A stretch of 64,000 nucleotides of DNA from Brevibacterium casei CIP 102111 (GTDB lineage: Bacteria; Actinomycetota; Actinomycetes; Actinomycetales; Brevibacteriaceae): positions 310,001-374,000 of the forward strand of contig NZ_FXZC01000001.1 in the NCBI RefSeq assembly GCF_900169275.1. The letters are read 5' to 3'. Position 1 is the first letter of the stretch; each line of letters begins with the position of its first letter. The position numbers were made by a program, and so were the translations under genes. Below the pieces are notes generated by a model that saw nothing but the letters and a program-made list of their open reading frames with translations, ran no database searches and was not told the origin of the DNA. Of this stretch, positions 23,631 to 33,972 are shown one piece after another.

Positions 23631-24502
23631 CCACGGCGCTCGTCACCGGGGCGAGCCGATCCCGACCCCGGGCGCTCGTCACCGGGGCGAGCGCCGGCCT
23701 CGGCCGCGGCTACGCCCGTGCGCTCGCCGCCGACGGCTTCGATCTCGTCCTCGTCGCCCGCAGTGCTGAGCGTCTGCGGCAGGTCGCCGGGGAGGCGGAG
23801 TCCGAGTTCGGCATCCGCGCCGAGGTGGTCCCCGCCGACCTCTCGAATCCTGAGGACATCGGCCGCCTCGTCGACCTCATCGGGACCCGGCGCATCGATG
23901 TGCTGATCAACAACGCGGGCTACGGACTGCTTGAGGGACTCCTCGACTCGGATCCCGCAGACGTCGCGGCCCTCGACACCGTGCTCCAGGCAGCCGTGCG
24001 CGACCTCTCCCTGGCCGCAGCGGCCGGGATGCGCGAACGCGGACGCGGAGGCATCATCACCGTCTCCTCCCTTGCCGCGCTGACGACGATGGGCCAGTAC
24101 GCCGCGTCGAAGGCGTCGAGTCTCGTCTTCACCGAGGCGCTCGCCGGGGAGCTGCGTGACACCCCGGTGACGGTCACTGCGGTGCTGCCCGGATTCGTCC
24201 ACACGGAGTTCCACGAACGCCTCGGCGCACGCCGACCGGGACCGGGGTGGATCTGGCTGAGCGTCGATGACGTCGTGCGCACATCCCTGCGCGATGCCCG
24301 ACGCGGCAGGGTCGTCTCGGTCCCTGGGGCGCAGTACCGGCTGGCAGCGGGGCTCGCCCGCTTCCTTCCGCGGGGGCTCATCCGCCGCGGCTCTGCGGGC
24401 TTCGCCTTCGACCGGCAGCACGGACGCGACAGGGGAGGGGAGAGCGAAGACGGGCAGGGCCTGACGGTATCGACATCCGAGAAGTTTTTCGGCCCTGAAT
24501 AA
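23627..24502 (+). CDS. Short-chain dehydrogenase/reductase
   Basis: A 291-residue classical SDR. The functional cofactor motif TGASAGLGRGYA lies near residue 22, NNAGYG near 90, the catalytic Ser in TVSSLAA and YAASK as the Tyr/Lys pair; a basic C-terminal extension from about 225 is hydrophilic. It would reduce or oxidise a carbonyl/alcohol with NAD(P)H. The N-terminus is unusual: ALVTGAS appears twice, 12 residues apart, from a partial 36-bp in-frame duplication, and only the second copy continues into the glycine motif. ATG 23627 overlaps the thioesterase stop. Confidence 0.87.
   Translation: MTTALVTGASRSRPRALVTGASAGLGRGYARALAADGFDLVLVARSAERLRQVAGEAESEFGIRAEVVPADLSNPEDIGRLVDLIGTRRIDVLINNAGYGLLEGLLDSDPADVAALDTVLQAAVRDLSLAAAAGMRERGRGGIITVSSLAALTTMGQYAASKASSLVFTEALAGELRDTPVTVTAVLPGFVHTEFHERLGARRPGPGWIWLSVDDVVRTSLRDARRGRVVSVPGAQYRLAAGLARFLPRGLIRRGSAGFAFDRQHGRDRGGESEDGQGLTVSTSEKFFGPE
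23635..23692 (+). repeat. In-frame 22-bp direct repeat at the SDR start
   Basis: Identical 22-bp segments at 23635-23656 and 23671-23692 (offset 36 bp) code for ALVTGAS twice. The 14 bp between them is unrelated to the flank, consistent with an old or imprecise 36-bp duplication. Confidence 0.85.
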
Positions 24503-24575
24503 CGAGGGAAGTTGAGGCTTGAATGATCTCGACCAGCCCTCTCATCTGCGGGTTCTCGCTGACGAAACACTGATT

Positions 24576-24592
24576 CTCTCATTCAATGAGAG
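24576..24592. promoter_or_regulatory. 17-bp palindrome, candidate operator
   Basis: CTCTCATTCAATGAGAG has perfect 8-bp arms around one base. It lies about 20 bp upstream of TTTACAAC and 57 bp before the first hairpin of the candidate RNA, a suitable place for a dimeric transcription factor. Confidence 0.5.
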
Positions 24593-24613
24593 CAAATAAG
24601 TGTGAGATCAACC

Positions 24614-24643
24614 TTTACAACTGTGCGGAAGGTGTGGTGGAAT
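24614..24643 (+). promoter_or_regulatory. Weak candidate promoter of the small RNA
   Basis: TTTACA (24614-24619) and TGGAAT (24638-24643) are spaced by 18 nt and would start transcription near 24650. Alternatively TACAAC (24616-24621) is itself a -10 box. Both readings are tentative. Confidence 0.3.
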
Positions 24644-24648
24644 TGTGA

Positions 24649-24766
24649 TGTCCGCCCGGTGGGGATCGGGTGGACATAACGGACGTATGGGGATGCGTCC
24701 GGGTACTCGAGGGGAGTGCTGCGAGGACCCCGGGATGACGCGATTACGCGCCCCGGGGTCTTTGTC
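24649..24766 (+). ncRNA. Candidate small RNA with four hairpins and G-rich loops
   Basis: Four hairpins follow one another with almost no spacer. Hairpin 1: TGTCCGCCCG (24649-24658) with CGGGTGGACA (24667-24676), loop GTGGGGAT. Hairpin 2: CGGACGTA (24680-24687) with TGCGTCCG (24694-24701), loop TGGGGA. Hairpin 3: GTACTC (24703-24708) with GAGTGC (24714-24719), loop GAGGG. Hairpin 4: GACCCCGGG (24726-24734) with CCCGGGGTC (24752-24760), followed by TTTGTC, like an intrinsic terminator. The T-run and the G-rather-than-C loops favour the plus strand. I do not recognise a known family; 6C RNA has C-rich loops instead. A riboswitch for the hydrolase is less likely because 366 bp separate them. Confidence 0.55.
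24726..24766 (+). terminator. Intrinsic terminator of the candidate RNA
   Basis: Nine-base-pair stem GACCCCGGG/CCCGGGGTC with a nested GCG-ATTA-CGC inner stem in the loop, followed by TTTGTCATT. Confidence 0.65.
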
Positions 24767-24830
24767 ATTCACCATCATTCGCTCATTCTGGTGACATGCG
24801 GTGCCGAACACTGTTCAGTCGGAGGCCCTT

Positions 24831-24848
24831 CTGATCAGTATTGATCAG
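24831..24848. promoter_or_regulatory. 18-bp palindrome, candidate operator
   Basis: CTGATCA (24831-24837) and TGATCAG (24842-24848) flank GTAT. It lies 65 bp after the candidate RNA terminator and 283 bp before the hydrolase start. Confidence 0.4.
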
Positions 24849-24946
24849 GGATTGCGCGCTTTCCGATCGATGCCGGCAGTCATTCCCCGGTCATCATCTC
24901 CGTCATCCGAAGTCACCACGACAGTCATTGACGCGCCGGATCGGTA

Positions 24947-24962
24947 GACCGTCGAGACGGTC
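24947..24962. repeat. 16-bp palindrome
   Basis: GACCGTC (24947-24953) and GACGGTC (24956-24962) flank GA. Could be an operator or a small hairpin; nothing else supports a role. Confidence 0.35.
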
Positions 24963-25131
24963 GCCGATCCGACCGCAGGAGGGTGGTCGAGAGGTCTTCG
25001 ATGCCACCTCGGCGGTGCGGGTCCGGCACTCGCGAAAAGTGCCGTCGAAGCACCCGATCTGCGCAATCTCGCCGGTAGGCTGGTGTGAGTTTGATCACGC
25101 ATCCGCATCGCGCCGACTGAGAGGCACCCCT

Positions 25132-26082
25132 ATGGCCGTCTTCGATCTCACGTTCCCCTCGAGCAACGGCCGCGACGACGTGCGCGCCTGGGTGCACACG
25201 CCGGTGGCGGAGAGGCCGCGGGGACTCGTCCAGATCGTCCACGGGTTCGGCGAACATGCGCGTCGTTACCTGCCGCTCGTCTCGGCGCTCCTCGACGCCG
25301 GCTACGCGGTCGCGCTCGACGACCATCTCGGGCACGGCACCACAGCGGTGGCCAATGACTCCTGGGGTGACTCCGGTGGTGCCGACCCCGGGGTCTTCGT
25401 CTCCGACGAGGCCGAACTCGCCCTCCGGGCGCGGGCCATCGTCCCCGACGTGCCCTTCCTCGTCTTCGGCCACAGCTGGGGGTCGATGATCATGCGGGCC
25501 TACCTCGCCGAGTGCTGCGGCGACGTGGCCGGGGCGGTGCTCTGCGGCACCCCGGCCGGGATGCTCGGAATCGCAGAGGGCCGCGATCACGCTCTCGCAC
25601 AGATCCACGACGAGGGCGCCGGCGCCGTCGACTCGGGCGCGCTCGCGCTCATGCTCGGTCCCCTCAACCGACGGTACGGCTCCGACGCGACGCCGATCGA
25701 CTGGGTCTCGGGATCGCCCGCCGTCCTCGCCGACTACGTCTCCGATCCGCTCAACCTCGGGCAGCGTCCCGTCACCGCGGGCTTCGCCGCCTCCTTCGCC
25801 GCACTCTACGAGCGGGTCGACGGAGCCGGCTGGGCCTCCCGCGTCCCCCACGAGGTGCCGGTGCTCCTCATCGCCGGGGAGGAGGATCCCGTCGGCGACT
25901 GGGGAGAGGGTGTCCGCAGCGTCGCCGACGATCTCGTCGCGGCGGGCCATCCGGCCGTGACGACTCGGCTGTGGGCAGGGGTCCGGCACGAAGTCCACAA
26001 CGAACCCGACGTCCGCGACGAGGTCTTCGCCGTCGTCATCGAGTTCTTCGACGAGGTCACCGCGGCGCGGCCGCTGCCCTGA
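25132..26082 (+). CDS. Alpha/beta hydrolase, monoacylglycerol lipase-like
   Basis: A 316-residue serine hydrolase. VQIVHGFGEHARRYLPL is the oxyanion segment typical of monoglyceride lipase-like enzymes, DDHLGHG follows, and FGHSWGS holds the nucleophilic Ser near residue 117; IAGEEDPVGDW supplies the Asp and GVRHEVHNE the His. No signal peptide, so cytoplasmic; likely acts on monoacylglycerols or lysophospholipids. ATG 25132 has GAGAGG 6 nt upstream, and TAGGCT (25077-25082) is a candidate -10 box. It is a single-gene unit ended by a strong hairpin. Confidence 0.87.
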   Translation: MAVFDLTFPSSNGRDDVRAWVHTPVAERPRGLVQIVHGFGEHARRYLPLVSALLDAGYAVALDDHLGHGTTAVANDSWGDSGGADPGVFVSDEAELALRARAIVPDVPFLVFGHSWGSMIMRAYLAECCGDVAGAVLCGTPAGMLGIAEGRDHALAQIHDEGAGAVDSGALALMLGPLNRRYGSDATPIDWVSGSPAVLADYVSDPLNLGQRPVTAGFAASFAALYERVDGAGWASRVPHEVPVLLIAGEEDPVGDWGEGVRSVADDLVAAGHPAVTTRLWAGVRHEVHNEPDVRDEVFAVVIEFFDEVTAARPLP

Positions 26083-26221
26083 GGTTCAGCCGTCCACGCG
26101 CGTGTTCGAGCGCAGCCCGGCGCCGAGGCGTGGGGACTCGACCGCGCGGCCGTGGGCTGAGTGCCCCGGACGGTGCCGGGCGGAGCCGGATCGGACCGTC
26201 CTCGCGGCAGTGACGCACGAC

Positions 26222-26263
26222 GACGGAGCGGCGCCCCCTCCGCTGAGGGGGCGCCGCTCCGTC
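26222..26263. terminator. Strong bidirectional hairpin terminator
   Basis: Perfect 19-bp arms (26222-26240 and 26245-26263) with loop CGCT lie between the hydrolase stop and the convergent AmaP-like gene, ending 19 bp from the latter. Confidence 0.85.
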
Positions 26264-26281
26264 ATGTCATCGTTCGGCGGC

Positions 26282-26878
26282 CTATGCGAGGGTGACCTCG
26301 CGCTGCTTCCGATTCGACGACCGGGCGATGCCGATCTCGAGTCCCATCGCCGCGATCGGCACTCCGAGCGCTCGGCTGGCATTGCCGGCGACCCGGTGGG
26401 CGATGTCGGCGACGACGGCATCGATGTCCGCGCGTTCGTCGACGTCGACGTGCACGATGAGCTCCGGTCGCTTCGCGGTGCCGCGGAGGATGACCTGGGA
26501 GTCCTCGACGCCGTCGGTGGCCTCGAGGTCGTCGGAGACCGCCTCGGCGACGACTGCCGCTGTCACCGAGGTGATGCCGGTGCGAGCGTCCTGCTGGAGG
26601 CGCAGCGGCTTCGCCGCGTCCTTGCGCGGGATCTGCAACGACAGCCACCAGATTCCGATGATCGCGAGCACCACCGCGATGACGACGGCGACGATCGCTG
26701 AGAACGGGAGCGCGAACTTGTCCGCGATCGGGGCGAGACTCGCCGAAGGATCGAGGCCGGGCAGGATGCCGGCCAGGAGCCCGAGCCCGAAGAGGGCGAC
26801 GAACGCTCCGCCGAGGAGGAGGATGAGTCCGATGATGAACAGACCGGTCCGGTTCGCGCCTGCTGCCATGCGTCGCAT
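26282..26878 (-). CDS. AmaP-like alkaline shock membrane anchor protein
   Basis: A 198-residue protein with two membrane helices (about 10-35 and 58-82) separated by a short loop, followed by a cytoplasmic domain of about 110 residues containing RPELIVHVDVDERADIDAVVADIAHRV. This layout matches AmaP, which tethers Asp23 to the membrane in firmicutes. The ATG at 26878 overlaps the preceding stop as TGATG with GGAGG 5 nt upstream; GTG 26881 is an alternative. It is the last gene of the leftward Asp23 operon. Confidence 0.78.
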   Translation of the reverse strand: MRRMAAGANRTGLFIIGLILLLGGAFVALFGLGLLAGILPGLDPSASLAPIADKFALPFSAIVAVVIAVVLAIIGIWWLSLQIPRKDAAKPLRLQQDARTGITSVTAAVVAEAVSDDLEATDGVEDSQVILRGTAKRPELIVHVDVDERADIDAVVADIAHRVAGNASRALGVPIAAMGLEIGIARSSNRKQREVTLA

Positions 26879-27444
26879 CACTGCCTCCTGACCGCGTGCA
26901 CGCGCACGCTCGGTTGCCGGACGAAATCGATCGAGCTCAGCCGACGCGAGACCGAATCGGCGACCTCGCTGCGGATCTCGGCGGTGTCACGCACCGGGGT
27001 GGTGAACGTGACGATCGACGAGCGGGTGTTCGATGAGGCGCGCACCCGGGCGACCCCGTCGACGGCATCCGCAGCCGAGGCGGCGAGGTCGGAGAGCGCC
27101 GACGTCGGCATGGCGACCTCGAGGCGCTCGACGTGCTCGGCTGCAGGGGCCTGCAGGCCGAGGATGCGGCGGGCTCCCGGCGAGATCGCGAGGATGACGA
27201 GCACCAGGCCGATGAGGCCGAGCACGATGCCCGCAGCGATCACCGCGGGGGTGGCCCACTGGAGAGATTCGGCGCCGGCGATGCCGGGCAGAACCGTCTC
27301 CAGAGAGGCGTCCGCGGAGTTCGCCTGCGCGATCGCGGCGATGCCCGCCCACCCCAGGGCCACTGCGATGAGCAGAAGGACCACGGCGACGATGACGGAT
27401 GGCACGACCCGCGCGGGGCGGGCGCGCAGAAGCTGTGCACTCAT
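26878..27444 (-). CDS. DUF6286 membrane protein of the Asp23 operon
   Basis: A 188-residue protein matching the actinobacterial DUF6286 family. Two membrane helices (about 14-36 and 63-87) flank an outside segment, and the C-terminal 90 residues form a soluble domain with VRVRASSNTRSSIVTF-like beta strands, resembling the AmaP soluble domain. It overlaps its neighbours on both sides (ATGA with the Asp23 gene, TGATG with the AmaP-like gene) and has GAGGAG before its ATG. Probably part of a membrane assembly with the Asp23 proteins. Confidence 0.8.
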   Translation of the reverse strand: MSAQLLRARPARVVPSVIVAVVLLLIAVALGWAGIAAIAQANSADASLETVLPGIAGAESLQWATPAVIAAGIVLGLIGLVLVILAISPGARRILGLQAPAAEHVERLEVAMPTSALSDLAASAADAVDGVARVRASSNTRSSIVTFTTPVRDTAEIRSEVADSVSRRLSSIDFVRQPSVRVHAVRRQ

Positions 27445-27809
27445 GCCAGACTCCTCACTTCGGCTGAGCGGCCCGTACCTTCGGGCCGGAGCCAGGTCAC
27501 GTCGATGTCGACCTGGCGGACAGCGACCCCCGTGAGCGATTCGACTTCGGTGCGCAGGGTCTCACGCACCGATTCGGTCGTCTGGGAGATCGGGAGCGGA
27601 TAGCGGAGGCCGAGCCGGACGTCGAGGACGCAGCTGCGGCCGGAGAGGGTCACCGACACGCTCGGACGGGCGTCGAGGCTGTCATTGCCGCCGATGCCGA
27701 GGAAGCCCGAGGTGGTGCCGCCGACTCCGGGGATGCCCTTGAGGATCTCGGAGGCCGTCTTCTCGACGACTCTGTCCGCGATCGTGAGGCTACCGCGTGA
27801 TGCAGCCAC
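27441..27809 (-). CDS. Asp23/Gls24 family protein (second copy in operon)
   Basis: A 122-residue Asp23-domain protein (ASRGSLTIADRVVEKTASEIL at its start; VRQVDIDVTWL at its end). Asp23 proteins are abundant, membrane-associated through AmaP and linked to cell-envelope homeostasis. I chose GTG 27809: GGAGGTGATC, complementary to the conserved 16S rRNA 3' end over ten bases, lies 8 nt upstream. The in-frame GTG 27818 overlaps the DUF2273 stop but lies inside that ribosome site. This strong site suggests high translation. Confidence 0.82.
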   Translation of the reverse strand: MAASRGSLTIADRVVEKTASEILKGIPGVGGTTSGFLGIGGNDSLDARPSVSVTLSGRSCVLDVRLGLRYPLPISQTTESVRETLRTEVESLTGVAVRQVDIDVTWLRPEGTGRSAEVRSLA

Positions 27810-27814
27810 GCCGA

Positions 27815-27997
27815 TCACCTCCGCGTCGTCGAACGCGAGCTCAGGGCTCCGAGGTCGAGTCGACCGTCGAGGACGAGACCGATGGTGAGGCCGAGCCCAC
27901 CGCAGATCGCGACGACGAGGAATGCGACGAATCCTCCGAAGTACGCGACGATGCCGAGGGTGAGTCCGACAAGCAGTCCTACGTAAGTTTTCGACAT
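27815..27997 (-). CDS. DUF2273 small membrane protein
   Basis: A 60-residue protein with two hydrophobic helices (about 5-22 and 25-43) and a basic C-terminus, matching DUF2273. Such proteins are regular members of asp23-amaP operons and are proposed membrane partners of Asp23. AAGGA lies 7 nt before the ATG. A long inverted repeat separates it from the upstream asp23 gene. Confidence 0.82.
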   Translation of the reverse strand: MSKTYVGLLVGLTLGIVAYFGGFVAFLVVAICGGLGLTIGLVLDGRLDLGALSSRSTTRR

Positions 27998-28026
27998 GGC
28001 TGTCCTTCCGGGGCTGTCGCTGCGCT

Positions 28027-28052
28027 CCCCGAGGCGAGTGCTCGCCTCGGGG
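28027..28052 (-). terminator. Intercistronic hairpin between asp23 and DUF2273
   Basis: Perfect 12-bp arms CCCCGAGGCGAG (28027-28038) and CTCGCCTCGGGG (28041-28052) around TG. It lies 23 bp after the first asp23 stop and 30 bp before DUF2273. It could attenuate readthrough or protect the asp23 mRNA end. Confidence 0.6.
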
Positions 28053-28074
28053 GCGTCAGCGAGGGGTGGGTGTG

Positions 28075-28557
28075 TCAGGAGAGGTTGTTCTGATCGTCCG
28101 ACTTCTTCTGATCGTCGTTGTCCTCGTCGGGGAGGTGGACGTCGGTGACGTCGATGTTGACCTCGACGACCTGGAGTCCGGTGCCCTGCTCGACGGCGCG
28201 GATGACGTTGCGACGGATCGCCTCGGCGACGTCGACGATCGAGGTGCCGTACTCGACGACGATCGTGAGATCGATCGCGGTCTGCTTCTCGCCCTTCTCC
28301 ACGGAGACTCCGCCCGAGACGTTCGTCTGCGAGCCGGGGATCCGGTCGGTGAGGGTGTCGAAGGCGCGACGAGCGGCGTTGCCCATACCGAAGACGCCGG
28401 GGACCTCGCGCGCCGCGATGCCGGCGAGCTTGGCGACGACGTTCTCAGCGATGGTCGTGTTGCCCTTGTCGGTGACCAGGGGGCTGTTGACGTCGGCGCC
28501 GGCCGAAGCGGTCGAACCAGCGGTCTTGGTGGTGGAGGGAGCGTTGGTCTCAGGCAT
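28075..28557 (-). CDS. Asp23/Gls24 family protein (first gene of operon)
   Basis: A 160-residue Asp23 protein. Residues 1-25 are a Thr/Ser/Ala-rich disordered tail; the domain runs from LVTDKGNTTIAENVVAKLAGIAAREVPGVFGMG to VVEVNIDVTDVHLP with GVSVEKGEKQTAIDLTIVVEYG in the middle, a close match to the family; the acidic/polar end is disordered. In firmicutes Asp23 forms a membrane-proximal scaffold induced by alkaline stress. The long hairpin after its stop suggests it is made in excess over the downstream membrane genes. Confidence 0.9.
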   Translation of the reverse strand: MPETNAPSTTKTAGSTASAGADVNSPLVTDKGNTTIAENVVAKLAGIAAREVPGVFGMGNAARRAFDTLTDRIPGSQTNVSGGVSVEKGEKQTAIDLTIVVEYGTSIVDVAEAIRRNVIRAVEQGTGLQVVEVNIDVTDVHLPDEDNDDQKKSDDQNNLS

Positions 28558-28753
28558 GATTGTTCATTCCTTTTCGTGTCGGAGGTGCTGACATAGGTAC
28601 AGACGCAGCCGGTGGCGAATCCTCACGCACGAATCGCAAGAATTTCTCCGCATCGCCCGAAACCTGTGCGCGCACCGGCGGCCGCGGAGTCTCGATTCGG
28701 TGAACTTTCCTCCGAATATCCGGCAAGGCATGTTCCCAGGTCGGAGGCTCGCC

Positions 28754-28759
28754 TATGAT
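28754..28759 (+). promoter_or_regulatory. -10 box (TATGAT) for a leaderless sigma factor transcript
   Basis: TATGAT, one base from TATAAT, ends 7 nt before ATG 28767, so transcription should begin on the start codon. No -35 hexamer is clear. This suggests housekeeping-sigma transcription and not pure autoregulation. Confidence 0.6.
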
Positions 28760-28766
28760 CTGAGAC

Positions 28767-29330
28767 ATGGCAAGAGGTGATGATCGATTCGACGTCGTGA
28801 CCCTCGTCGTGCGGGCCCGTGAAGGCGATGTCGACGCCTTCGCCGCCCTCGTCGACCGGTACGAGGTCAGACTGCTGCGCTTCGCGATGCGCACACTCGG
28901 GGACAGGCAGGACGCCGAGGACGTCGTCCAGGACACGCTCGTGCAGGCGTGGAAGTCCCTCAATGCGCTCGCTTCCCCCGAGGCATTCGGCACGTGGGTC
29001 TATCGGATGGCGTCGAACCGGTGCACCGACGTCCTGCGCAAGCGGGTCTCCCGGCCCGCCGATCCGGTCGACCCCGAGGACATGGGCGTCCACGCCGACG
29101 ATCGGGCCTCGGTGGAGAAGCGGGTCGAGGCCCGCAGCGCGCTCGAGCGCTTCGCCGAGGTGTTCTCGACGCTGTCCACCGAGCAGCGCATCACGTGGGT
29201 CCTCCATCAGATGGAAGGGCTCAGCTACGCTGAGGTGGCCGACACCTTGGGCATCACCGAAGGCAGTGTGCGCGGCCGGATCCATCGGGCCCGAGCCGCC
29301 ATCGTCGAAGGGATGAAGGGATGGACATGA
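28767..29330 (+). CDS. RNA polymerase sigma-70 family factor (ECF type)
   Basis: A 187-residue ECF-like sigma factor. Region 2 is DAFAALVDRYEVRLLRFAMRTLGDRQDAEDVVQDTLVQAW (residues about 21-60) and region 4 is LSTEQRITWVLHQMEGLSYAEVADTLGITEGSVRGRIHRARA (about 137-180). No extra C-terminal domain. It starts as a probable leaderless ATG and overlaps the next gene by 4 bases (ATGA). It is divergent from the Asp23 operon, whose promoter is the obvious candidate target. No transmembrane anti-sigma factor is present nearby. Confidence 0.9.
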   Translation: MARGDDRFDVVTLVVRAREGDVDAFAALVDRYEVRLLRFAMRTLGDRQDAEDVVQDTLVQAWKSLNALASPEAFGTWVYRMASNRCTDVLRKRVSRPADPVDPEDMGVHADDRASVEKRVEARSALERFAEVFSTLSTEQRITWVLHQMEGLSYAEVADTLGITEGSVRGRIHRARAAIVEGMKGWT

Positions 29331-29806
29331 GTGATGATCGCAGGCGGGCCGAGGACGAGCGCGCCGCTCCCGACCTCGACGCCGAGCTGCGCGACGTCAT
29401 CGACGACTACATGGGCCACTACGTCCCCGACCCCGAGCAGACCGCCGGGATCCGCGAACGGATCCTCCAGCTCGTCCGCAACGACCTCTACCGGGGTCCG
29501 TCGACGAAGCTGCGCACGGATGCGGGGCACGAGTACTCGATCGCCTCGGCGGCGGTGCGGACGATCGTCCGCGATGCCGTCGACTCGGTCGACGGGATCC
29601 GCTCCCGCAGCGTCGGCATCGCCCCGTCCGGGGAACCGGCAGGCAGCGCCGCCGAGGTGCGACTGACCGTGACCATGCGCGCGGACGTCCGCTTCGTCGC
29701 CGCCGCGGATCTCATCAGGACGGCCGTCTCCGAGGCGCTCGTACGCGAGCTCGGAGTGCCGGCAGCACGGATCGATATCGAAGTCGAGGATGCCTATGTC
29801 GAATGA
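29327..29806 (+). CDS. Soluble Asp23-like protein in anti-sigma position
   Basis: A 159-residue protein of no firmly recognised family. Residues 1-50 are charged and helical (DAELRDVIDDYMGHYVPDPEQ), residues 65-155 read like an Asp23-type alpha/beta domain: IASAAVRTIVRDAVDSVDGIR, VRLTVTMRADVRF, and VPAARIDIEVEDAYVE at the end. No membrane helix or zinc-binding HxxxCxxC motif. I chose ATG 29327, 6 nt after GAAGGG and in an ATGA overlap with the sigma stop; ATG 29321 is adjacent to the ribosome site and less likely. Its position behind the sigma gene is that of an anti-sigma factor; this role is inference. Confidence 0.7.
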   Translation: MSDDRRRAEDERAAPDLDAELRDVIDDYMGHYVPDPEQTAGIRERILQLVRNDLYRGPSTKLRTDAGHEYSIASAAVRTIVRDAVDSVDGIRSRSVGIAPSGEPAGSAAEVRLTVTMRADVRFVAAADLIRTAVSEALVRELGVPAARIDIEVEDAYVE

Positions 29807-30515
29807 CCCGCATGAGACGCCGACTCCGCTCGAGGTTCGGCACGAGGACCCCATCGTTGCCCCGCACCCGCCCGAGTCGCATCCGGACACGCCCTCAGCG
29901 CCGTTGCCGGGTCACGCACCGACCGCGGCCGGGCGCACCGGCGACACCAGCCCGGTTGACGTGCCGAGGACTGCGACCTCGCCCAAACCCGGCGGGGACG
30001 ACCGCCGGGTCGGCACCGGCAGCAGCGCCGGACGCACCGGCGCGGAGCCGGCGCTTCCCGCCGGGGCCGACGCGGCACCTGAGCCGGAGCTTCCCGCCGG
30101 GACCGACCCTGCTGGCGAACCCGAGCTGCCTGCCGGCACCGACTCTTCCACCGACGTCGCAGCGGCCGGGAGCGACGGCGACGCGGATCCAACGGAGGGC
30201 GGCCCGCTCACGCGCACTGCGCAGCAACTCGCGAACGAGATCGCCGGCATCGGGGGAGTGGCCTCACTCGCACCGGGCATGAAGGATCTCGTCGCCAGCG
30301 CCACTGCGCGGGTGCTGCGGCGCACCGGCGGTGAACCCATGGGCATCGACCTCACCGAGTCCTCCGACGGCTACCGAGTGCGCATCGACGCCCACTTCGA
30401 CGATTCGCGCTCGGTCGCCGCGATCGTCGACGAGATCTTCTCGGTCGTCGACCGCGAGGTCGGCGAGCCCGTCGAGGTCGACCTCAGGGTGATCAGCCGC
30501 GACGACTCGCACTGA
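29796..30515 (+). CDS. Asp23-like protein with long disordered N-terminal region
   Basis: A 239-residue protein. Residues 1-145 are low-complexity (Pro/Gly/Ala/Asp/Thr) with a repeated PELPAGTDPA-type unit and are likely disordered; residues 150-239 form a small domain similar to the preceding protein: MKDLVASATARVLRRTGG, YRVRIDAHFDDSRSVAAIVDEIFSVVDREVG, EVDLRVISRDD. That is the Asp23-like helix-strand pattern. I chose ATG 29796 (MSNDPHET) because GAGG lies 7 nt upstream; it overlaps the previous gene by 11 bases. Function unknown; presumably a further component of the module. Confidence 0.65.
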   Translation: MSNDPHETPTPLEVRHEDPIVAPHPPESHPDTPSAPLPGHAPTAAGRTGDTSPVDVPRTATSPKPGGDDRRVGTGSSAGRTGAEPALPAGADAAPEPELPAGTDPAGEPELPAGTDSSTDVAAAGSDGDADPTEGGPLTRTAQQLANEIAGIGGVASLAPGMKDLVASATARVLRRTGGEPMGIDLTESSDGYRVRIDAHFDDSRSVAAIVDEIFSVVDREVGEPVEVDLRVISRDDSH

Positions 30516-30592
30516 GTCGCGCGCCGAGGCGGATGTCGCCGCGGCAGGGTCGACCCGCCTCGGCGGGGTCAGGGCCGGACCGGAGGGCCACG

Positions 30593-30598
30593 TAGACT
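30593..30598 (+). promoter_or_regulatory. -10 box (TAGACT) for a leaderless pyrE transcript
   Basis: TAGACT ends 6 nt before ATG 30605 with no ribosome site. Confidence 0.5.
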
Positions 30599-30604
30599 GG
30601 GGTC

Positions 30605-31174
30605 ATGACCGACCCCGCAGACACCCGCCGACAGCTGCTCGACCTCATCGACGAACTCGCCGTGGTCCGCGGCCGAGTCACCCTCTCCTCCGGCCGGGAG
30701 GCCGACTACTACCTCGACCTGCGCCGGGTCACGCTCGACCACCGGTCGGCTCCGCTCATCGGCGACGTCCTCCTCGACCTCCTCGAGGCCGAAGGGCTGC
30801 TCGAGGGCATCGATGCGATCGGCGGTCTGACGATGGGCGCCGATCCCGTCGGCACCGCGGTCATGCACCGCTCGGTGCTGCGCGGCACTCCCGTCGACGC
30901 GTTCGTCGTCCGCAAAGAGGCGAAGAAGCACGGCATGTCCCGCCGCGTCGAAGGTCCCGATGTCGCCGGCAGGCGCGTCATCGCCGTCGAGGACACCTCG
31001 ACGACGGGCGGTTCCGTCCTCACCGCCGTCGAGGCGCTGCGGGAAGCCGGCGCCGAGGTGGTCGCCGTGGCCGTGGTCATGGACCGTGACACGGGCGCGA
31101 AGGAGAAGGTCGAAGCCGAAGCGGGGATCCCCTACCTCACGGCGCTGTCGACGAAGGACCTCGGCCTCGAGTGA
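30605..31174 (+). CDS. pyrE: Orotate phosphoribosyltransferase
   Basis: A 189-residue enzyme that adds ribose-5-phosphate from PRPP to orotate, the fifth step of UMP synthesis. It carries VTLSSGREADYYLDLRRVTLD, GGLTMGADPVGTAV, FVVRKEAKKHG and the PRPP loop VIAVEDTSTTGGS, all typical of PyrE. Length is normal. A probable leaderless start. No other pyr gene is adjacent, so it is a stand-alone unit as in several actinobacteria. Confidence 0.95.
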   Translation: MTDPADTRRQLLDLIDELAVVRGRVTLSSGREADYYLDLRRVTLDHRSAPLIGDVLLDLLEAEGLLEGIDAIGGLTMGADPVGTAVMHRSVLRGTPVDAFVVRKEAKKHGMSRRVEGPDVAGRRVIAVEDTSTTGGSVLTAVEALREAGAEVVAVAVVMDRDTGAKEKVEAEAGIPYLTALSTKDLGLE

Positions 31175-31234
31175 CGAGGGCGATCATGAGCTGGGACTCG
31201 ACTGTCAATTCCGTCGAAATCCCTGCCCCGGTTT

Positions 31235-31253
31235 GAATCGCCCTGGGCGATTC
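31235..31253. promoter_or_regulatory. 19-bp palindrome, candidate operator of the ABC exporter
   Basis: GAATCGCCC (31235-31243) and GGGCGATTC (31245-31253) flank a single T, 75 bp before the ABC ATPase start. It overlaps TTGAAT, a candidate -35 element, and is followed by GATAGAT at 31259-31265. A dimeric repressor (for example TetR-like) would fit, but none is encoded adjacent. Confidence 0.55.
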
Positions 31254-31327
31254 ACCACGATAGATGAGAAACTCTCACGGGGCCGCGGTTCCGCGCGGCC
31301 GCCTACGGACGAACGTAAGGATGACGT

Positions 31328-32200
31328 GTGCTCACACTCAACGAGGTCTCCCTCCGCAAGGGGAAGCGAACATATCTGGACGAGGTGAGCTTCACCGCCG
31401 AGGCAGGTCGGATCACCGCCGTCGTCGGCACCCGATCGGCGGGACGCACCGAACTCGTGCGTGTGATCATGGGTCTCATTAGCCCCGATGAGGGAACCGT
31501 CGAACTCGAGGGCCACGAACTCGAATACGGCGACCGACAGAACTTCGGCTACCTGCCCGGTGAGCGCGGCGGCTACCCGAACATGCGGGTCATCGACCAG
31601 ATCGTCTACCTCGCCCGCCTCCACGGGATCACCCTGGGCGCGGCCGAGCGCAACGCACTCACCCTGCTCTCCCGCCTCGAACTCGCCGACCGCGGCTACG
31701 CGCCGCTGAAGAACCTCAGCGGCGCGGAGATCGCCCGCGTCGACATCGCCGCCACACTCGCCGCCGATCCCGACGTCGTCGTCATCGACGACGCGTTCGC
31801 CGGCCTCGACGCGAAGTCGACCGAACTCGTCATGTCCCTGCTGCGGGCCCACGCGTCCTCGGGAGTCCCCGTCATCCTCGCCACCGACGACTGGGAGGCG
31901 GCGGAGAGGCACGCCGATGACATCGTCGCGCTCAGCCAGGGCAAGGTCACCGCGTCAGGCAGCGTCGACGACCTCCTCGGCGAACACCGCTACCGTGTCG
32001 CCCTCGCCGACGCCGAAGCGGCGGCGAAGTCCCTGTCAGGACGGTCGGGGATCACCGAGATCGAGGTCATCGACACCGTCATCACCTTCCGCGCGAACGA
32101 TCCCGGCTCGGCCGCCGCGACCGTGGCGAGGCTCGAGCGAGTCGAGAGCTTCGAACGCATCCGCCCGACGTTGGCCGAGCAGTACAAGGAGGCCCTGTGA
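31328..32200 (+). CDS. ABC transporter ATP-binding protein with degenerate catalytic motifs
   Basis: A 290-residue ABC protein partnered with the ABC-2-type permease downstream. Every catalytic motif deviates: Walker A is GTRSAGRT (Arg for the essential Lys), the signature is NLSGAEIARV in place of LSGGQ, Walker B is VVVIDDAFAGLD with Asp for the catalytic Glu, and the switch region is ATDDWE with Asp for the His. The C-terminal 80 residues form an added domain seen in drug-type NatA proteins. It may bind ATP weakly or work in regulation. GTG 31328 has AAGG 7 nt upstream. It is translationally coupled to the permease. Confidence 0.82.
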   Translation: MLTLNEVSLRKGKRTYLDEVSFTAEAGRITAVVGTRSAGRTELVRVIMGLISPDEGTVELEGHELEYGDRQNFGYLPGERGGYPNMRVIDQIVYLARLHGITLGAAERNALTLLSRLELADRGYAPLKNLSGAEIARVDIAATLAADPDVVVIDDAFAGLDAKSTELVMSLLRAHASSGVPVILATDDWEAAERHADDIVALSQGKVTASGSVDDLLGEHRYRVALADAEAAAKSLSGRSGITEIEVIDTVITFRANDPGSAAATVARLERVESFERIRPTLAEQYKEAL

Positions 32201-33972
32201 TGGCACGCAAGGACGACGCGCAGGACGCGGAGAACAGCAAGGACAAGGCGAAGGCCTCCTCGACGGAGGGGAACTCCGCGGGCGCTGCGCCGACGACGTC
32301 GAAGGGAACGGCTCCCAAGAGCCTCGACGATCTCGACATGGGCGCGACCGGCACCGAGGCGGCTGACTCCGAGTCGACGACCTCGACGTCGAAGTCGGCT
32401 GCCTCCAAGTCGTCGGCTGCCAAGTCGGGCGCCTCCACCTCGGCGGCCTCGACGTCGGCTGCCTCCAAGAAGACGGCCGACACCGAGGCGGATCCGACAG
32501 CCGGCCTCGATGAGGTGCCCTTCGAACTCGCGGAGGACCGGCCGAACCCGGAGGACCTGCCCGAGACCGGGCTTGTCTCCGAGTTCGTCGACGTCGGCCG
32601 GCGTCAGGCATCGTGGCTGGTGTCCAACCGCGAGAGCTCGACCGTCATGCGCTCGCCGTTCTTCCTCGTCCCCGTCGCCGTCGTCATCCTCGGCATCCTC
32701 GCCGTGATCGTCTCCGGCATCGTCCGTGAGGCCCAGGTCGGGTCGGGCACGCCGAGCATGGCCATGGTCGGCGTCGGCGAGCAGGCGGCGATGTACGAAC
32801 AGCAGCTCGGGGTGAAGATCACCGATGCTCCCGACGCGCAGGCGGCGGAGAAGCTCGTCCGCGACGGGAAGGTCGACGCGGCGTTCATCCAGGATCCGAC
32901 GGGTCAGGCGCAGCCGACGATCATCGCCCTCGACAGGCAGCCGACCGCGCTGCTCGAGAAGCTCGCTCCGCAGACCGAGGCGACCCTCCTGCAGACCCCG
33001 GCCGTCGCCGAGGACATCGCCACTCCGCTGCTGTGGGGCATGGTCGTCTTCTCCCTCCTCGTCATCGGCACGCTCGGCACTGCGCTCTATCAGAACCTGC
33101 GTCTGGAGAAGCGGAACCGGATCACCGAGATCATCGCGGCGACGATTCCGCCGCGCGCAGCCGCCTCGGGCCGGATCACGGGCATGCTCACGCTCGTCGT
33201 CATCCACCTCCTCGTTGCGGCCGTCGTCCTCGAGCTCGGACTCTCGATCTCGGGCAAGACGTCGATCGCCTTCGCGATGCTGCCCGGACTCGGCTGGTTC
33301 GCCCTGACTCTGTTCTTCACCGCGTGGGCGGTCTTCGCCCTCCTCGTGTGGGCCTCGACCCTCACCGGTGAACGGGCACGGAGGATCGCCGTGACGATCA
33401 TCGGCGTCCTCGTCGTCGCCGGCGCGATGGCACCGGTCATCGTCGGCGCGAGCGGAACGGTCGGCCGGGTGCTCGCCTGGACCCCGTTCACCTCACCGCT
33501 GGGCATCGCGGGCCGCTTCCTCTCCGCCCAGCCCGAGTGGTGGGAGGGCCTCGTCGCCGCCGCCATCGCCGCGGTCCTCGCTCTCATCGTCCACGCGGTC
33601 GCCGGCGGAGCCTACGTCCGTTCGGTCCTCTCCGGCGGAGGCCGCGGAGGCAAGACGGTGACGATGAGCAAGCGCGCGAAGAAGGTCGCCGCCGCTGACT
33701 CCGAGGCGGACACGGACGAGAAGGCGTCGACCTCCTCGGCGAAGGCGGCCTCGGAGACGACAGACGACGAACCCGTCGACGAGGACTCCGACGACGCGGT
33801 CTCCGACGACGCCGACGAGACGGTGACCGTATCGGAGACCGAGGAGGTCACGACGACGGAGACGGCCACCGCGAAGTCCGCGAAGGGCACGACCGCCTCG
33901 GCGAAGGGTGCCCGCGCGACGAAGACCACGGGTGTCACGAAGGATTCCGGGAAGGACTCCGACGCGAGGTGA
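32200..33972 (+). CDS. ABC-2 type permease (NatB-like) with long disordered ends
   Basis: A 590-residue membrane protein. Residues 1-105 are a Lys/Ser/Ala/Thr-rich cytoplasmic tail with a degenerate SKSAASKSSAAKSG repeat; the first helix is near 150-172; an extracytoplasmic region runs to about 265; further helices between 265 and 480 end the ABC-2 domain; residues 490-590 are a second Ala/Lys/Asp/Thr-rich tail. The helical part resembles NatB sodium or drug exporters. ATG 32200 follows AAGGAGG by 7 nt and touches the ATPase stop (TGATG). Both low-complexity tails are unusual for this family. Confidence 0.8.
   Translation: MARKDDAQDAENSKDKAKASSTEGNSAGAAPTTSKGTAPKSLDDLDMGATGTEAADSESTTSTSKSAASKSSAAKSGASTSAASTSAASKKTADTEADPTAGLDEVPFELAEDRPNPEDLPETGLVSEFVDVGRRQASWLVSNRESSTVMRSPFFLVPVAVVILGILAVIVSGIVREAQVGSGTPSMAMVGVGEQAAMYEQQLGVKITDAPDAQAAEKLVRDGKVDAAFIQDPTGQAQPTIIALDRQPTALLEKLAPQTEATLLQTPAVAEDIATPLLWGMVVFSLLVIGTLGTALYQNLRLEKRNRITEIIAATIPPRAAASGRITGMLTLVVIHLLVAAVVLELGLSISGKTSIAFAMLPGLGWFALTLFFTAWAVFALLVWASTLTGERARRIAVTIIGVLVVAGAMAPVIVGASGTVGRVLAWTPFTSPLGIAGRFLSAQPEWWEGLVAAAIAAVLALIVHAVAGGAYVRSVLSGGGRGGKTVTMSKRAKKVAAADSEADTDEKASTSSAKAASETTDDEPVDEDSDDAVSDDADETVTVSETEEVTTTETATAKSAKGTTASAKGARATKTTGVTKDSGKDSDAR

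Follow-up and report, generated by a model that had tools for sequence, protein, structure and literature searches.

The window analysed here, a stretch of 64,000 nt from the 3.84-Mb genome of Brevibacterium casei CIP 102111 (NZ_FXZC01000001.1), contains a leftward set of five envelope genes, two of them encoding Asp23 proteins, that faces three rightward genes encoding an extracytoplasmic function (ECF) sigma factor and two soluble proteins, here called P7 and P8. From right to left, the reverse-strand set encodes the first Asp23 protein of the operon (28075–28557; PF03780, 106.2 bits, above cut-off), a small DUF2273 membrane protein (27815–27997; PF10031, 21.9 bits against a cut-off of 25.4, with orthologs in relatives), a second Asp23 protein (27441–27818; PF03780, 43.1 bits, above cut-off), a DUF6286 membrane protein (26878–27444; PF19803, 75.3 bits, above cut-off; hydropathy maximum 3.07), and an AmaP-like membrane anchor (26282–26881; NCBIfam anchor_AmaP, E 2e-14, 53.7 bits against a cut-off of 55; hydropathy maximum 2.95). 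On the forward strand, the sigma gene (28767–29330) encodes a 187-amino-acid protein of the ECF type, with regions 2 and 4 only, both above cut-off (Sigma70_r2, 63.6 bits; Sigma70_r4_2, 48.8 bits; TIGR02937, 101 bits). It is followed on the same strand by the gene for P7 (29327–29806), a proposed anti-sigma factor with a reduced N-terminal helical part and an Asp23-like C-terminal domain, and by the gene for P8 (29796–30515), a proposed co-regulator in which about 130 low-complexity residues precede a putative Asp23-like domain. The eight-gene layout of the initial annotation was confirmed at every coordinate, as was the 4-bp overlap that it had described between the sigma and P7 genes, an ATGA common to the stop of the one and the start of the other. 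Between the two gene sets lie a putative ECF-type promoter of the Asp23 operon, the conserved element GTGAGGAT-N13-CGTCTGTA (28598–28626, reverse strand), and TATGAT (28754–28759, forward strand), a −10-like hexamer of presumed promoter function located 7 nt 5' of the sigma start. We read the three rightward genes as a regulator and the leftward operon as its target. Comparison of genomes strongly supports control by the sigma factor, of the stress type, of this operon and of glsB, another membrane stress gene, which we consider very probable, and P7 is likely to be the anti-sigma factor; the full model, with P7 in that role, we regard as probable.

The sigma factor and P7 are coupled throughout the loci examined. 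In a named collection of 26 loci (19 from Brevibacterium and seven from Rathayibacter), the sigma gene in every case precedes P7 and has an Asp23 gene divergent from it, and in all 20 Brevibacterium loci (the window and L052–L070) a start codon for P7 coincides with the sigma stop. The identity of P7 to that of the window is 49–61% in 15 relatives (the divergent L040, at 24%, is left out), and the nearest named relative found, Brevibacterium sp. W7.2, shares 87%. A search of the class with the 26 P7 queries matched 132 of 394 genomes, a figure that does not count P7 homologs, many of the weak matches covering the C-terminal part only and probably being Asp23 proteins. Of the loci matched, 29 were fetched and examined, the window's own excluded, and an ECF sigma factor is encoded just upstream of P7 in all 29, as a separate gene in 28 and as a fusion in one. 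The 28 separate pairs have a P7 start codon on the sigma stop (24 pairs) or nine bases earlier (four pairs); since the start was assigned to whichever start codon lay closest to that stop, these counts record the presence of a codon and not measured starts. The fusion (L140:1474–2454) encodes sigma and P7 as one protein of 326 residues and is intact, free of stops, in two of the four genomes of its genus (g96; L140 and L223, 71% identical), the other two lacking it; it only suggests a contact between the two proteins. The pairing of a sigma factor with an Asp23-like protein, noted at first in this one sequence, is thus conserved in relatives, and the idea that an Asp23-type protein is the partner of the sigma factor draws good support from gene position, conservation, fusion, and the N-terminal zinc anti-sigma-like domain of the homologs described below. 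A tryptophan adjacent to the C-terminal residue of sigma (29322–29324 in the window) is conserved across the 28 separate class-level sigma factors and is possibly a contact for the partner.

Taken alone, P7 of the window matches Asp23 only weakly (Pfam E 0.037, below cut-off; AmaP C-terminus E 4e-6). A profile of 17 P7 sequences compared with an Asp23 set gave 96.6% (E 4.9e-10) over P7 residues 56–159, and all four Rathayibacter homologs tested exceed the Pfam Asp23 cut-off; by profile comparison, P7 is assigned to the Asp23 family. In the predicted structure (mean pLDDT 76.5), the two N-terminal helices are uncertain and residues 59–157 form a confidently modeled alpha/beta domain. The solved folds nearest to the model are C-terminal domains of the MamM type, such as that of the CDF transporter MamM (3w5y_A; Z 11.6, rmsd 1.8 over 76 residues, 12% identity), a likeness of fold that does not imply a likeness of function. 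Comparison of the model, made without a solved Asp23 structure, revealed no clearly different fold. No Asp23 structure was seen in the fold-match lists for P7, an absence that proves nothing, and searches of PDB sequences with the P7 and P8 profiles found nothing useful. A metal-binding domain of the CDF type, considered on account of the MamM match, is not favored, the sequence profile pointing to Asp23. The maximum 19-residue hydropathy is 1.22 for P7 and 1.19 for P8, well below the 2.5–3.1 of the three membrane proteins; both therefore appear to lack a membrane helix and to be soluble, as first proposed, and a membrane-bound anti-sigma factor was ruled out for P7 on the same measure.

An indication of an anti-sigma function comes from the N-termini of P7 homologs. 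HxxxCxxC is the signature of the RsrA-type soluble zinc anti-sigma (ZAS) factors, and it is present in 17 of the 28 separate class-level P7 proteins; four others have CxxC only and seven have neither. The N-terminal part of the 17 homologs with the full motif, compared with 17 RsrA-type sequences (from a TIGR03988 search, after removal of the wrongly cut row L210), gave 95.4% (E 1.8e-8). In the controls, the best of 100 column shuffles reached E 0.048, and masking of cysteine and histidine left E at 6.9e-4 with the register unchanged. Ten homologs without the full motif gave 17% (E 1.4e-3), and the C-terminal half of P7, against the RsrA set that still included L210, gave E 0.093. These class-level homologs can thus be said to have HxxxCxxC and an RsrA-like N-terminal domain, and the N-terminal matches suggest that P7 derives from a zinc anti-sigma factor, or has parts in common with one, and that it was reduced in Brevibacterium. 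The initial annotation had seen no classical anti-sigma factor; this stands for the window, the genus having no zinc core, and fails for the homologs that carry the motif.

The region between the sigma and Asp23 genes is poorly conserved save for one element, which reads toward Asp23. The form GTGAGG-N15-CGTC is found upstream of Asp23 in all 20 Brevibacterium loci, and a related form, GTGACG-N16-CGTCTCAC, was seen by inspection in most of the seven Rathayibacter loci. A loose motif (GTGAGG-N14-16-CGTC) was rejected because it matched too many sites in the source genome (157, against 31 in the backward control), and the strict form GTGAGGWT-N13-CGTCTGTA was used instead; it has two exact sites in that genome and none in the backward control, and five sites with two mismatches against one in the control. 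In a null of 1,200 random stretches, 38 fell at zero or one mismatch, presumably because some stretches came from element-bearing loci, and the rest had at least four mismatches. We searched 59 genomes (37 of the genus, the source genome included, and 22 from outside it) for P7 and Asp23; the named loci L052–L070 overlap with this set, and the counts are not to be added together. A close P7 (E 1e-40 or better) is present in 16 of the 59 genomes. All 16 carry the exact element, which is absent from each of the remaining 43; at the Asp23 operon itself it is exact in 15 of the 16 and one base off in G027. The sigma gene has no exact site before it in Brevibacterium, so autoregulation through the element was rejected; TA[TC][GC]AT lies 6–7 nt before the sigma ATG in all 20 loci, consistent with what is apparently a leaderless promoter of the housekeeping type.

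The second exact site in the source genome lies on another contig (C9), upstream of a glsB-csbD pair (L108:1598–2138; glsB, PF04226, 32.5 bits; csbD, downstream of it, PF05532, 56.4 bits). Apart from the source genome, 15 genomes have a close P7, and in 14 of these glsB adjoins P8 in convergent orientation; the pair of the source genome is unlinked to the window locus and keeps an exact site, and linkage therefore does not explain it. The glsB site is exact in nine of those 15 genomes and within one mismatch in 12, or in 13 of 16 with the source genome included; no site was found in G034, and in G010 glsB lies elsewhere and has no site. The GlsB family is also present in 30 of the 43 genomes without a close P7 (46 of the 59 overall), there without the exact site. 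Two genomes in which the regulatory module has decayed (G007 and G008) each have one mismatch in the glsB site, which falls within GTGAGG in G007 and within CGTC in G008, the pattern expected of sites that have lost their reader, although few genomes are involved. A third genome with a remnant (G013) has one mismatch outside the cores, a change found also in sigma-bearing genomes.

Operon and regulator also come and go together. Within the genus, Asp23 exceeds the cut-off in 18 of the 37 genomes, and P7 is found in the identical 18. Others hold remnants: G007 and G008 have only P7 and P8 fragments and no Asp23, with sigma, P7, and P8 decayed, and in G013 what is left of P8 is faced by an Asp23 operon that is truncated and scores below the cut-off. 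Joint retention and loss of operon and regulator is the conclusion that we draw from this distribution. Outside the genus, Asp23 was found in five of the 22 genomes; a sigma-P7 pair is its neighbor in G053 and, for one copy out of three, in G042, but not in G041, and in G045 and G049 the contig ends lie too close to Asp23 for the neighbors to be called. In G012, a second five-gene Asp23 operon (L042, contig C7) lacks a neighboring sigma gene and has the element with two mismatches; a GlsB-family match with an internal stop lies just upstream of it.

The model that we favor runs as follows. The sigma factor and P7 would be made together from their overlapping genes, behind the housekeeping-type promoter. 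P7, as a cytoplasmic anti-sigma factor consisting of a reduced helical segment and an Asp23 domain, would hold sigma inactive, probably with the aid of P8. An envelope signal, plausibly relayed through contact of P7 or P8 with the membrane-anchored scaffold of Asp23, AmaP, DUF6286, and DUF2273, would free the sigma factor, which would then start transcription of the Asp23 operon and glsB-csbD at GTGAGGWT-N13-CGTCTGTA. Fresh Asp23 proteins would rebuild the scaffold and could thereby reset the switch.

Several observations weigh against this model. The 16 genomes that carry the exact element may form one clade, and the counts of 16 and 43, made without a tree, are not independent and may reflect few events. 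Three genomes with divergent sigma-P7 modules (G032, G036, and G053) lack the exact element, their promoters presumably being different because the sigma-P7 pairs have themselves diverged, and among 14 class-level loci with a divergent Asp23 gene the GTGACG/CGTCT form was found in two and a looser form in six. Many ECF operons carry their own promoter element upstream, as in autoregulation; this sigma gene does not. One sigma-bearing genome (G028) has two mismatches in its glsB site, in the CGTC core. Asp23 operons without a neighboring sigma gene exist (in G041, in two of the three G042 copies, and in the second G012 copy). The overlap of the sigma and P7 genes is not seen throughout Rathayibacter, in which the P7 start lies on the sigma stop only in L075 of the seven loci; in five the first candidate start lies 14–44 bases past the stop, and in L073 no candidate was found.

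Other such points concern the N-terminus of P7. With the bad row L210 included, the comparison of homologs with the RsrA set gave 95.2% unmasked and an E of only 0.005–0.017 with cysteine and histidine masked, about the value of the reversed control (0.016–0.017, same set); on the evidence of the masked controls, the remaining signal is modest and the zinc motif makes up the bulk of the match. Pfam zf-HC2 was matched by one of ten P7 homologs tested, at E 0.076. On inspection of its sequence, P7 of the window has no cysteine, and the zinc ligands are absent. The Brevibacterium P7 N-terminus gave 13.6% (E 0.002) against the RsrA set that included L210, and it aligns with the domain of the homologs only over residues 33–57, which correspond to the last helix (38%, E 3.3e-4; best of 60 shuffles 0.014). 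Brevibacterium thus appears to have lost the zinc core and kept the last helix and the Asp23 domain, and we infer that a P7 so reduced still inhibits sigma.

The same pattern admits a bolder version of the model, in which the Asp23 domain, not the zinc core, both holds the sigma factor and does the sensing for it. The Brevibacterium proteins and the sigma-P7 fusion, which likewise lacks the zinc core and retains the last helix and the Asp23 domain, lead to this version, which we put forward tentatively and consider rather doubtful. Were it true, P7 and the true Asp23 proteins would be rivals for positions in the scaffold, and sigma would directly gauge its completeness; once damaged, the scaffold would sequester P7 and free sigma, and the Asp23 operon would be remade until P7 was displaced.

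A second alternative assigns inhibition to a P7-P8 pair, or to P8 alone, with P7 sensing the scaffold and bringing about release. P7 and P8 are tightly coupled in most Brevibacterium loci, and a divergent member of the genus (G036) encodes them as a single protein of 349 residues (L039:6103–7152). Genes in the P8 position carry an Asp23 domain in some class-level loci, two of the four tested being above the Pfam cut-off (L124 and L125) and two not (L137 and L143). P8 itself shows no anti-sigma-like match; its resemblance to Asp23 is weaker than that of P7, at 40.5% (E 2.9e-4) against the Asp23 set, with no Pfam match and a model pLDDT of 57. It is also less conserved than P7, with 33–55% identity to the window in 15 relatives against the 49–61% given above for P7, and no P8 was found in any of the seven Rathayibacter loci. 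We think this alternative unlikely. The low-complexity part of P8 contains imperfect ELPAGTD repeats (about 30050–30150 in the window), a stretch absent from the other aligned Brevibacterium P8 proteins.

P7 might instead act positively on sigma, as a co-activator or adaptor, by stabilizing it or bringing it to the membrane scaffold. Absence of the zinc core from P7 of the window and from the sigma-P7 fusion speaks for such a role, and loss of the core together with fusion would fit a constitutive partner. Homologs in the equivalent gene position, however, carry the RsrA-like N-terminal domain, and a gene overlapping the 3' end of a sigma gene occupies the usual position of an anti-sigma gene; a positive role is in our judgment quite improbable. 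Least credible, and very unlikely, is the notion that P7 and P8 are extra soluble scaffold subunits co-transcribed by chance, with sigma controlled by its level or by another protein, since the Asp23-like domain of P7, the putative one of P8, and the existence of Asp23 operons without sigma, which would suit it, are opposed by the placement of P7 after sigma in 29 of 29 class-level loci, by the sigma-P7 fusion in two genomes, and by the anti-sigma-like N-terminus of the homologs.

The favored model, with P7 as the anti-sigma factor, resembles several known systems in part. P7 homologs share with the RsrA-type ZAS factors a C...HxxxCxxC N-terminal domain, gene position, and solubility; they differ in the C-terminal Asp23 domain, and a thiol-redox switch is impossible in P7 of the window because cysteine is absent. 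In staphylococci, an Asp23-AmaP membrane scaffold is under SigB, which is controlled with RsbW. Asp23 and AmaP genes under an alternative sigma factor are thus common to both, whereas the sigma factor here is of the ECF type, is encoded opposite the operon, and has a partner that carries an Asp23 domain of its own. The enterococcal gls24-glsB stress operon places an Asp23/Gls24 protein and GlsB under joint control, as we propose for Brevibacterium; by contrast, in 14 of the 16 close genomes glsB lies beside P8, convergent to it, and in most cases has a separate copy of the element, and in the source genome it is unlinked.

The initial annotation had held that an Asp23-type anti-sigma factor would be new, but as a hypothesis it is already in print. 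The sigma factor groups ECF286 and ECF292 (Casas-Pastor et al. 2021, as cited in PMC8999054) are described in a 2022 review as adjoining soluble proteins of the Asp23 family, for which an anti-sigma function is predicted but experimentally unconfirmed, with actinobacterial examples in Streptomyces rimosus and Mycolicibacterium cosmeticum (PMC8999054). The sigma factor of the window, which we set beside these groups by description, likewise adjoins a soluble Asp23-family protein, and differs in that the zinc core has been lost from P7; the passages of the review that treat the two groups mention no promoter, glsB target, or sigma-Asp23 fusion (PMC8999054). Among literature titles and abstract openings we found no experimental test of an Asp23-type anti-sigma factor, and for the promoter and the glsB link our claim leaves the subscription literature aside. 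What appears to be new here is regulatory evidence, drawn from genome comparison, on a pairing already predicted. The control and role of the widespread actinobacterial Asp23 scaffold have been largely open, and candidates can now be named: a sigma factor, a promoter sequence and a small regulon made up of the Asp23 operon and glsB-csbD, together with an inhibitor whose domain belongs to the scaffold's own family. The published prediction becomes directly testable in Brevibacterium, and the natural series from a full zinc anti-sigma domain to none offers a means of dissecting the role of the Asp23 domain.

A search of Rfam with positions 24000–33000 of the window found no RNA. Beyond the AmaP-like gene, between it and a convergent gene ending at 26082, lies a very stable GC-rich hairpin (26222–26263; −51.9 kcal/mol for 26215–26285, z −6.9), which looks like a two-way terminator.

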